A stretch of DNA of 64,000 bases. Source: Nordella sp. HKS 07 (GTDB lineage Bacteria; Pseudomonadota; Alphaproteobacteria; Rhizobiales; Aestuariivirgaceae). Under the pieces are notes generated by a model. That model was not told the DNA's origin, did no database searches, and worked only from the letters and a program-made list of their open reading frames with translations. Position numbers and translations under genes: made by a program. Position 1 is the first letter of the stretch; each line of letters opens with the position of its first letter. The DNA is taken from assembly GCF_011046735.1 (NCBI RefSeq), contig NZ_CP049258.1, positions 5,288,001 through 5,352,000 of the forward strand, given 5' to 3'. This document shows, in pieces, positions 3,576 through 47,802 of this stretch.

Positions 3576-3689
3576 TAGCGCGGGATGCGAAAAAGTGGGC
3601 ATCGGTTTTTCGCAATGATCCCGCGCTAACATATAGGGATCGATCACGTTTATGAGTTGGGATTGCTTCAATCCAAACTCATCGTGATC
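3576..3689. repeat. composite palindromic element, copy 1 (subtype I, A-B order)
   Basis: Two adjacent hairpins fill the mltG-yicC gap. Half A (3576-3628) has outer arms TAGCGCGGGAT and ATCCCGCGCTA around GCGAAAAA and TTTTTCGC. Half B (3642-3689) has outer arms GATCACG and CGTGATC around GAGTTGGGATTG and CAATCCAAACTC, with GCTT at the apex. A 13-base linker separates them. The same architecture recurs at 41114, 41633 and 47690, with partial relatives at 7536 and 31987. Confidence 0.85.
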
Positions 3690-3764
3690 TGGCCGGAAAA
3701 GCGGTATCCCTCATTGCAGGTCAGGCGGTAAAGTCGCCGCAGTTTTGATTCGGGGATGGGGTCT

Positions 3765-4652
3765 ATGTCGCTGTCGAGCATGACAGGTTACGCACGCGCT
3801 TCGGCGGCACTCGATGGCTTGCACTGGCAATGGGATATCAAGAGCGTCAATGGCAAGGGGCTCGACATACGTTGCCGCATGCCGCCCGGCTTCGAGACGC
3901 TCGATCTCCCGGTGCGCGAGATCGCCCAGAAGCATCTGAAGCGCGGCAATGTCCAAATCAGCTTTACCTCGGACCGCGGCGGTGCCGAACAGAAGCTCGC
4001 GGTCAACGAGGCGGCGCTCGAGCAAGTCGTTGCCCTGGCGGAAAAATTGCGCGAACGTTTGGGCGGCGCTCCGCCACAGATCGAGAGTCTGCTCGCTTTG
4101 CGCGGCATCATCGACGTCGCCGAGTCCGTGGAAGATGAGGGCCAGCTGGCCAGGCGCGACAAGGCCATCCTCAAGAGCGTCGAAGAAGCCTTCCAGGCCT
4201 TGGCAGTCATGCGCAAGGCGGAAGGAGCCAAGCTTGGCGCCATCCTTGGCCAGCAGCTTGACCGCATAGAGAAGCTTGTTATCGCGGCGCGCGACAATCC
4301 GGCGCGCTCCGTGGAAGTCATCCGGGAACGCCTTGCCGAGCAGGTCAGCCGCCTCATCGAGGCGAATTCGTCCTTCGATCGGGATCGACTCCATCAGGAG
4401 GCGATTTTGCTGGCGACGCGCGCCGACATCGTTGAGGAGATCGACCGGCTCTTCGCCCACATCGAGGCGGCGCGAAAGCTCATGCAATCGCGCGAGCCGG
4501 CCGGCCGTCAGCTCGACTTCCTCGCCCAGGAGTTCAACCGCGAGGCGAATACCCTGTGTTCCAAGGCGTCCGATAAAAGCTTGACCGCGATCGGGCTGGA
4601 GCTGAAGACGGTCATCGATCAGATGCGCGAGCAGGTGCAGAATATTGAATAG
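3765..4652 (+). CDS. YicC family endoribonuclease
   Basis: A 295-residue YicC/YloC family protein. It starts MSLSSMTGYARAS, the family's signature N-terminus, and its C-terminal DUF1732 region contains ILLATRADIVEEIDRL, RQLDFLAQEFNREANTLCSKASD and LKTVIDQMREQVQNIE. Members are recently described RNases; E. coli YicC affects small-RNA turnover. I prefer the ATG at 3765 over the in-frame ATG at 3756, because homologues begin just before SMTG. It overlaps or abuts gmk, a pairing conserved across proteobacteria. The role is from family knowledge and no substrate can be inferred. Confidence 0.93.
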   Translation: MSLSSMTGYARASAALDGLHWQWDIKSVNGKGLDIRCRMPPGFETLDLPVREIAQKHLKRGNVQISFTSDRGGAEQKLAVNEAALEQVVALAEKLRERLGGAPPQIESLLALRGIIDVAESVEDEGQLARRDKAILKSVEEAFQALAVMRKAEGAKLGAILGQQLDRIEKLVIAARDNPARSVEVIRERLAEQVSRLIEANSSFDRDRLHQEAILLATRADIVEEIDRLFAHIEAARKLMQSREPAGRQLDFLAQEFNREANTLCSKASDKSLTAIGLELKTVIDQMREQVQNIE

Positions 4653-5295
4653 CGGAAAAACAAAGACAGTGATCGCCAGGCGCGGTCTTCTCCTGGTGAT
4701 GTCCTCGCCATCGGGCGCCGGCAAGACCACTTTGTCGCGCGCCTTGCTGGCGGCCGACCAGAATATTCGCATGTCGGTGTCAGTAACGACCCGGCCGCCA
4801 CGCCCGGGCGAGCGCGACGGCAAGGATTACTTCTTCATCTCCAAGGAGCGCTTCTTCGAGATGCGCGACAATGACGAGATGCTGGAGTGGGCGGAAGTCT
4901 TCGGCAATCTCTACGGCACGCCGCGCAAGGCTGTGGAGGAGGCGCTGAGCCAGGGTCGTGACGTGCTGTTCGACATCGACTGGCAGGGCACCCAGCAGCT
5001 CGAGCAGGCGATGGGCGACGACCTTGTGCGCATCTTCATTCTGCCGCCCTCGACGGACGAATTGCGCGACCGCCTCATCAAACGCGCCCAGGATTCGGCC
5101 TCGGTCGTCGCCAAGCGCATGGCGGAAGCCTCGCGCGAGATGAGCCATTGGGCCGAATATGACTATGTCATCGTCAATGACGATGTCGCCGGGGCGAGCG
5201 TCGAGATCACCGCCATTCTGACGGCCGAGAGACTGCGCCGCAAGCGCCGCATCGGCCTGACGGAATTCGTCCGCGGACTGAACAAGACGCTCTGA
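4645..5295 (+). CDS. gmk: guanylate kinase
   Basis: Phosphorylates GMP to GDP with ATP. The P-loop SSPSGAGKTTLSR is near the N-terminus. The GMP-binding SVTTRPPRPGERDGKDYFF and the central FDIDWQGTQQL and FILPPS motifs are intact. The start is uncertain: the longest frame uses TTG at 4645 and overlaps yicC by 8 bases. A GTG at 4669 (VIARRGLLLV) fits family N-termini better and would give about 208 residues. Translational coupling to yicC is likely either way. Confidence 0.93.
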   Translation: MNSGKTKTVIARRGLLLVMSSPSGAGKTTLSRALLAADQNIRMSVSVTTRPPRPGERDGKDYFFISKERFFEMRDNDEMLEWAEVFGNLYGTPRKAVEEALSQGRDVLFDIDWQGTQQLEQAMGDDLVRIFILPPSTDELRDRLIKRAQDSASVVAKRMAEASREMSHWAEYDYVIVNDDVAGASVEITAILTAERLRRKRRIGLTEFVRGLNKTL

Positions 5296-5310
5296 GGGCG
5301 GGCGAGCGGC

Positions 5311-46254: not shown

Positions 46255-46925
46255 GACCTTTCGATCTTTCCGTCTATCTCGTGCTCGACCCGGTCCTCTG
46301 CCGCGATCTGTCGATGGTCGAGACCACGCGCGCCGCCGTTGCGGGCGGTGTCACCATGGTGCAGCTGCGTGACAAGGATGCCGGTACCGCCCGTATGATC
46401 GAGACGGGGCGCGCGCTCCTGGCCGTCCTGGCGGGGACAGGCGTGTCGCTCATCGTCAATGACGACGTCGAGGCCGCCATCGCCATCGCGGCCGATGGCC
46501 TGCATGTGGGTCAGGAGGACATGCCCGCGGCCGCGGCTCGACATCTGATCGGACCCGATAAAATTCTCGGCCTTTCGATCGAGACGCCGGACGCCGCGCG
46601 CGCCGTGGCCGATGCTCCGGTCGACTATGTCGGCATCGGGCCGGTCTTCGCCACCCCGACCAAGGCCGACCACAAGCAGCCCATCGGATTTGGCGGCCTC
46701 GCCGAGCTTGTCGCTTTATGCCGGCTTCCGGCGGTGGCGATCGGCGGGCTCAAGGCCGAGCACGCCGCGCCGGTGATCACGGCGGGAGCGGACGGGCTCG
46801 CCGTGGTGTCGGCCATTTGCGGGAGGTTCGATCCGCGCGCCGAGGCCCAGCGGATCGCTGAAGCCGTCAGGACCGCCAGAGCGCGTAGAAATGGTGGAGC
46901 GGCCCATGACCGTGCCCGACGGTGA
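46251..46925 (+). CDS. thiE: thiamine-phosphate synthase
   Basis: A 224-residue TIM-barrel enzyme joining HMP-PP and thiazole phosphate. Motifs are GVTMVQLRDKDAGT, LIVNDDVEAAIAIAADGLH, VGQEDMPA, YVGIGPVFATPTKAD and AIGGLKAEHAAPV. The ATG overlaps the thiM stop by 4 bases. The last 20 residues are basic and low-complexity, and overlap the end of convergent thiD; they may be a non-conserved extension. Confidence 0.94.
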   Translation: MRPFDLSVYLVLDPVLCRDLSMVETTRAAVAGGVTMVQLRDKDAGTARMIETGRALLAVLAGTGVSLIVNDDVEAAIAIAADGLHVGQEDMPAAAARHLIGPDKILGLSIETPDAARAVADAPVDYVGIGPVFATPTKADHKQPIGFGGLAELVALCRLPAVAIGGLKAEHAAPVITAGADGLAVVSAICGRFDPRAEAQRIAEAVRTARARRNGGAAHDRARR

Positions 46926-47670
46926 GCTCAGCGCTGGCGGCGAGCGCGCCAGACAGATAGTCCTTGGCGCGCCGCACGCTTTCCTCCATCCCGTGGCGGG
47001 GAAGGAGAGCGGCAATCGCGGCTGAGAGCGTGCAGCCGGTGCCATGATCGTTCTTTGTCACCACGCGCGGTGCAGAAAACTCGACATGGCCGCCACCACC
47101 GAGCAGAATGTCGGTGCTCTCGGAGGAACCTTCGAGATGGCCACCTTTGAGCAGGACCCACTCCGGGCCGAGCCGGTGGAGAGTCTCGGCGCGCGCCCGC
47201 ATTTCCGCCAAGGTCCAGTCGGGCTCGGCGCCGAGCAGCACGGCGGCTTCCGGCAGATTGGGCGTGATCAGCGTCGACAGCGGCACGAGCATGTCGCGAA
47301 TGGCCGCGATCGCGTCCGGGCGCAACAGATGATGGCCGCTCTTGGCGATCATGACGGGATCGAGCACGATATTGCGCGCGCCATGGTGCTTCAGCCTTTG
47401 CGCGATCGTCTCGACGATGGCCGCCGTCGCCACCATGCCGATCTTGACCGCATCGACGCGGACATCCTCGAACACGGCGTCGATCTGCTCGGCTATGAAG
47501 CCGGGCTCCAGAGTGACGAAGGAGCGCACGCCTTGCGTGTTCTGTGCCACGACCGCGGTGATGGCGGCCATGCCATAGGCGCCCTGCGCCGCGAAGGCTT
47601 TCAGATCGGCCTGGATGCCGGCCCCGCCGGTCGGATCGGTGCCGGCGATGCTCAGGACATTGGGGATCAT
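46867..47670 (-). CDS. thiD: hydroxymethylpyrimidine/phosphomethylpyrimidine kinase
   Basis: A 267-residue ribokinase-fold enzyme phosphorylating HMP and HMP-P. Family motifs are [65 protein letters not shown] and the catalytic [16 protein letters not shown]. It is transcribed against thiE and overlaps its 3' end by 59 bases. It therefore lies outside the riboswitch operon. Confidence 0.95.
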
Positions 47671-47689
47671 GCGGCGCTCGCGTTGAAAC

Positions 47690-47802
47690 TAGCGCGTGAT
47701 CAGGAAAAGTGGGTACCGGTTTTCCGTCCGATCACGCGCTAAACTAAAGATCCCGATCACGTATATCACTTCAGGTCGATTCGACCTGAAGTGATCGTGA
47801 TC
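47690..47802. repeat. composite palindromic element, copy 4 (subtype II, A-B order)
   Basis: Half A (47690-47741) has TAGCGCGTGATC and GATCACGCGCTA with GGAAAAGTGGG and CCGGTTTTCC inside. Half B (47755-47802) has GATCACG and CGTGATC with CACTTCAGGTCG and CGACCTGAAGTG. It fills the gap between thiD (start) and purN (stop). Confidence 0.85.

Follow-up and report, generated by a model that had tools for sequence, protein, structure and literature searches.

Four copies of a composite palindromic repeat lie in the 64,000-nucleotide stretch of the Nordella sp. HKS 07 genome analysed here (contig NZ_CP049258.1, positions 5,288,001 to 5,352,000; hereafter the window). Each copy joins two dissimilar hairpins, A and B, through a short linker, and repeats of this type move as one unit, are intergenic in both orientations and carry TA at both ends. 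Our preferred reading, to which we assign a probability of roughly 0.65, is that they are non-autonomous mobile DNA of the kind represented by CIR (CcrM-associated intergenic repeats) and RIME (Rhizobium-specific intergenic mosaic elements), inserted through a trans-acting enzyme so that the TA of the element replaces target bases. The initial annotation of the window had arrived at part of this interpretation: its mobile, non-autonomous unit with a retained fold stands, while the novelty it claimed for the A+B composite and the RayT-like driver it put forward do not.

The four repeats described in that annotation were confirmed as real and complete, with two on each strand, its coordinates being off by 0–3 bases (Table 1). 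With limits set from the alignment, every window copy is complete and reads TAG, hairpin A, a linker of 13 or 15 nt, hairpin B and CTA, for a total of 115–116 bases. Folding of each copy yielded two hairpins, the 3′ arm of A bearing an asymmetric bulge and the 5′ arm of B a bulge of 3 nt. The two hairpins differ in sequence, neither being an inverted copy of the other; at the element ends only TAG/CTA is mirrored, and no inverted repetition links the ends past that point. In subtype 1 the A arms are of the GCGGGAT type and the B arms of the GAGTTTGG type; in subtype 2 they are of the GCGTGATC and CACTTCAG types, respectively. All four copies lie between open reading frames (ORFs) or touch a stop codon: copy 1 starts 5 bases past the stop codon of a YceG-like gene (2062–3570), and the terminal CTA of copy 4 is the TAG stop codon of a formyl-transferase-like ORF (47802–48446, minus strand). 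Copies are found at stop codons because the TAG/CTA ends can serve as stop codons themselves. Across 109 copies, the terminal T and A were present in 79 and 90 copies at the left end and in 100 and 96 at the right end, in a C-TA-G context (C 64%, G 68%). A search of the copies against Rfam gave no family match at the gathering score.

Table 1. Coordinates of the composite copies and of related two-hairpin units (window positions unless a genome is named).
Feature	Position	Strand	Parts and remarks
Composite copy 1, subtype 1	3576–3691	+	A 3576–3628, linker 3629–3641, B 3642–3689; A then B
Composite copy 2, subtype 2	41111–41225	-	A 41225–41174, B 41160–41113
Composite copy 3, subtype 1	41631–41746	-	A 41746–41694, B 41680–41633
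Composite copy 4, subtype 2	47690–47804	+	A 47690–47741, B 47755–47802
Family II, 164-base two-hairpin unit, near-identical copies	genome G000, about 164736–164898, 2433909–2434071, 2946451–2946613		often abuts the present element (family I) at CTAG
Family IV copy (TAGAGCATGATCCGG...CACTTTAG)	7483–7588	-	two-hairpin architecture, TAG start as in the present element

We built a covariance model (R1) from the four window copies, and the genome-wide search for the A+linker+B unit that had been proposed beforehand returned matches far above chance. The own genome (one contig of 7,184,314 bases) holds at least 150 copies, a floor given that 150 of 1,694 first-look candidates were scored. All 150 matched R1 at E ≤ 7.8e-6 (best 1e-28), at least 146 of them at E ≤ 1e-6, and all matches spanned model positions 1–116, that is, the full length. 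In the four further genomes of the genus, the counts at E ≤ 1e-6 were at least 81, 59, 84 and 30 (no more than 150 candidates scored in each), so that the element is present in all five. Across the order, 41 of 160 genomes matched at E ≤ 1e-7 under strict filters; four same-family genomes of other genera in this set showed no match under these settings. Near-exact copies were found in Rhizobiales bacterium Y(2018), Aestuariivirga sp. YIM B02566 and Taklimakanibacter lacteus, a list that may omit the own species. More distant full-length relatives occur on 135 plasmid records, mainly from Sinorhizobium, including pSymB of Sinorhizobium meliloti (75% over 117 of 117 bases; 32 matches at E ≤ 0.001). 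This distribution agrees with the statement in the initial annotation that half-A-type palindromes are common in Hyphomicrobiales.

Mobility was read from sites that are filled in one genome and empty in another. We compared G001 and G003, two genomes of the genus that are about 95% identical in the flanks, using joined-flank queries: 20 copies filled in G001 gave 16 empty sites in G003, and 20 copies filled in G003 gave 12 empty sites in G001. Eight copies on pSymB of S. meliloti 1021, queried against plasmids of other strains and species, gave six more, with no empty site taken for copies L302 and L311. Presence and absence thus vary between close genomes at 28 genus and six Sinorhizobium sites. 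Scoring by eye covered 29 of these, namely 23 of the 28 genus sites (L340, L350, L354, L355 and L356 were set aside as ambiguous or rearranged) and all six Sinorhizobium sites. Site comparison was left unscored for three own copies (3576, 47690 and 6265237), as the flanks were too diverged; the site of copy 4 is empty in both G001 and G003, and near the site of copy 1 G003 has an independent copy in the opposite orientation.

At the 29 scored empty sites, the target dinucleotide was mostly TA (8) or one base off TA (18), with neither in only three. By group, the genus sites comprised 4 TA, 16 one base off and 3 neither, and the Sinorhizobium sites 4 TA and 2 TC. The target sits between a pyrimidine and a purine, with C or T on the left and A or G on the right at 21 of the 23 genus sites each. 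Pyrimidine-NN-purine sites near the copies would predict TA at 1.5%, one base off at 39% and neither at 59%; against this expectation, the genus sites have too few of the last class (three or fewer, p = 7e-6) and too many TA (four or more, p = 4e-4), which indicates a graded preference for targets that match TA. When filled, the genus sites carry TA at the left end in 19 of 23 cases and at the right end in 18 of 23. Nineteen genus sites are not TA when empty; of these, 11 have TA at both filled ends, and the target dinucleotide is not retained beside the element at most of these informative sites. Outgroups bear on the direction of change: at L199, the empty TG is common to G003, G000 and G002, and at L193, CA is common to G003 and G000. 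These targets were therefore not TA before insertion; TA came in with the element, at the expense of the target dinucleotide. At L185, a copy of its own occupies the same place in G002, and G003 and G004 share an empty CGAG. Comparison of these sites suggests the following insertion rule: two target bases give way to the element, which supplies TA at each of its ends. We also considered precise insertion after CT without loss, as in IS200-like elements, and rejected it on the grounds that the flanking bases mismatch the predicted empty site.

The rival that survives best is an IS630/Tc1-type miniature inverted-repeat transposable element (MITE), with strict TA insertion and TA duplication as proposed for RUP and Correia repeats; RUP is linked to IS630 in the portion of a published account that deals with it (PMC2229807). 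Such MITEs share with the present element the TA ends, a length of ~100–150 bp and an intergenic location, and the C-TA-G context together with the TA found at 4 of 6 Sinorhizobium and 4 of 23 genus empty sites would fit them. They differ in having long terminal inverted repeats, where here only TAG/CTA is mirrored, and in duplicating a TA target, a rule that most sites here do not follow: 21 of the 29 empty sites are non-TA, and outgroups share the non-TA dinucleotide at L199 and L193. We consider this explanation unlikely.

The two halves of the element belong together. Their subtypes match in 129 of 131 copies scoring at least 60 bits (114 assigned by script and 15 unclear ones by eye); the two mixed copies are copies 97 and 128, the latter a chimera within half A, and the relative G001 also has a mixed copy (L183). 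Within 1.37 Mb of the own genome, in stretches picked around composites, we counted 128 A+B pairs, 23 unpaired A and 13 unpaired B halves, and an additional 20 stretches of 20 kb held no composite pair, three unpaired A and one unpaired B; neither set is a random sample. Inspection of the 23 unpaired A halves by eye showed that 12 keep a decayed or truncated B, four belong to another family and seven have no visible B. The gap from A to B is tight, being 14 in 79 of the 128 pairs. Thirty non-identical sequences, drawn from the genus, from further genera in the order and from S. meliloti, were aligned and showed two-sided changes in 31 of 41 base pairs, with 96.8% of cells paired and 206 cells with two-sided changes versus 7 with one-sided changes. 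None of 500 shuffles reached the 31 pairs or the 96.8%, and slid structures were only 34–45% paired. These findings bear out what the initial annotation had read from four copies, namely matched subtypes, halves that are mostly joined rather than separate, a non-autonomous pair that moves and evolves as a single unit (by subtype linkage and by whole-unit insertions at sites empty elsewhere), and a fold retained while the sequence diverges.

The strong paired fold, the copies directly after stop codons and the presence of repeats of this general sort among S. meliloti transcripts, as given in part of a transcript study (PMC2873474), would also suit a structured RNA under selection, such as a terminator, an mRNA stabiliser or a small RNA, rather than mobile DNA. 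Against this stand the variable presence between close genomes at the 28 genus and six Sinorhizobium sites, the rarity of G-U pairs implied by 7 one-sided versus 206 two-sided cells, and the lack of an Rfam match at gathering level. In the own genome (42 base pairs, 109 copies), G-T and A-C mismatches are about equal at 76 and 59, so there is no sign of RNA-strand bias. We read the pairing as maintained in DNA, with neutral decay following insertion, and regard a selected RNA as improbable.

The initial annotation had also pointed to a RayT-like transposase, a REP-associated tyrosine transposase (RAYT) of the Y1 type that acts on repetitive extragenic palindromes (REPs). The Pfam Y1_Tnp model gave two hits in the own genome, one of them under the cut-off. 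Searched with one query protein at E ≤ 1e-10, RAYT homologues were present in 12 of the 160 genomes of the order, in 4 of 41 element carriers and 8 of 119 non-carriers. No element copy was found within 3.3 kb around either of the own RAYT genes; the first (L151, genome 6535693) is embedded in many GTGACAGTGCATTCAA-type repeats, a separate REP system, and no repeats of any kind were seen at the second. The present element does resemble REPINs and BIMEs (REP doublets and bacterial interspersed mosaic elements) in its paired hairpins, short TAG foot, unit of ~115 bp, intergenic location, non-autonomy and excess of doublets over single halves, and the genome has two Y1-like genes, but its hairpins are unlike rather than inverted copies of one REP and it shows no RAYT association, so we reject a RAYT/Y1 driver and hold mobilisation of the REPIN type to be very improbable.

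GANTC, the substrate of the CcrM methylase, is concentrated in the element. The 109 copies contain 194 such sites, or 15.3 per kb versus 2.1 per kb in the genomic DNA analysed (7-fold overall) and a shuffle mean of 49.6. They fall in the A bulge region (57), the linker (70) and the B loop (67), the last being occupied in 58 of the 81 copies with B subtype 1. Dam sites tie the movement of IS10 to the freshly replicated, hemimethylated state.

On the reading as TA-replacing mobile DNA, a trans-acting enzyme would recognise the two folded DNA hairpins by their shape and their TAG/CTA feet rather than by sequence, and would cut at the TA boundary. Insertion would then take place at a target with a 2-base stagger, where the TA of the element should pair with the target dinucleotide, one mismatch being tolerated, and the junctions would mostly be resolved to the TA of the element. 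The GANTC sites may link movement to newly replicated DNA in the manner of Dam for IS10.

Several observations weigh against this reading. Eight of the 19 informative genus sites do not show TA at both ends, and in two of them the odd end (left in L361, right in L345) is identical to the target dinucleotide, the outcome that target duplication or a heteroduplex would give. TA targets, 8 of the 29, cannot separate replacement from plain TA duplication. Eye scoring is blurred at some sites by intergenic indels, the species compared within the genus differ by at least 5%, and a net gap of 3 between the joined flanks was seen in 10 of 14 full spans filled in G001 but only 4 of 11 filled in G003. 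The covariation alignment was fitted to the structure model, which favours that model. GANTC is absent from 13 of the 109 copies, and its presence in the B loop is limited to 9 of 28 among those of subtype 2. The analysis found neither an autonomous element nor an enzyme, with no search made for transposases such as IS630 and IS110; likewise, no autonomous version with A and B 0.3–4 kb apart was noticed among the unpaired halves of the 1.37 Mb, which represent 19% of the genome.

Other 14-mers starting with TAG also recur in the DNA of the own genome, and they could be read out as families II to VI, which are unrelated in sequence, the present element being family I. One copy of each was folded: all five form two hairpins, hairpin 1 being bulged on its 3′ arm, and a bulge on the 5′ arm of hairpin 2 was present in families II, III and VI and absent in IV and V. 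Family I abuts family II or III units at a common CTAG (e.g., genome 164736–165013, 2445002–2445278 and 1656037). The family IV copy in the window has an A-type core, GGAAAAGTG...TTTTCC, in common with the present element, but not the B half. In one case, a site empty in G003 is occupied in G001 by a family III piece that had displaced two bases. The presence of several unrelated families with shared architecture and ends points to one driver reading DNA shape. We propose, tentatively and with some doubt, that a single order-wide enzyme, neither a RAYT nor a strict TA-duplicating IS630 type, may move two-hairpin DNAs of unrelated sequence, recognising shape and TAG/CTA feet and swapping the target dinucleotide for TA on both sides. 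As a separate observation, an insert of GCTTGTGGTCGGGCTTGACCCGACCATGCG occurs within the loop of family IV/V hairpins at genome positions 3997101, 5634049 and 4596306 and is possibly a nested palindrome.

Three further features of the window were recorded. A thiamine pyrophosphate (TPP) riboswitch (Rfam RF00059) lies at 43412–43545, and a phosphomethylpyrimidine-kinase gene (46867–47670) follows a few kb downstream. Tandem repeats with steps of 63, 12 and 51 bases (28932–29531) fall within the reading frame of an OmpA-domain protein (28812–30926), and an ORF at 60606–63788 encodes three tandem Glyco_tranf_2_4 domains.

Among known systems, the closest by description are the CIR repeats (Chen & Shapiro 2003), which in the passages devoted to them have ~110 bp, two arms, a linker, GANTC at the loop and TA termini, with target duplication given as unknown in a table and more information said to be needed on how they move (PMC2229807). 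The claim of the initial annotation that no A+B composite had been described is therefore wrong, as CIR repeats have this anatomy. Compared with those passages, the element presented here has a similar length (115–116 bp), is likewise intergenic and from alpha-proteobacteria (here Hyphomicrobiales), consists of two long inverted repeats forming two arms with a linker instead of the usual terminal inverted repeat, and has TA at its termini; its GANTC is in the B loop in only 67 of 109 copies. On anatomical grounds, and with CIR compared by description only, the element is best filed with the CIR/RIME kind.

RIME probably has the A+B composite anatomy as well. Its elements were reportedly described from Rhizobium and Sinorhizobium by Osteras in 1995; we take RIME1 to be ~108 bp long with two palindromes, and S. 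meliloti to be a RIME species. Several S. meliloti papers cite RIME. Full-length relatives of the present element on S. meliloti pSymB may correspond to RIME1 by this definition; the pSymB record showed no repeat annotation to match RIME1 copies.

As far as its CIR passages go, the published account (PMC2229807) contains neither an insertion rule nor several families in one genome; here several families were seen, and the rule suggested by the empty sites is new relative to the CIR description. Repeats of the CIR/RIME type have been on record for two to three decades without a known way of moving; the set of empty sites now offers a concrete insertion rule for them and removes the obvious RAYT candidate.

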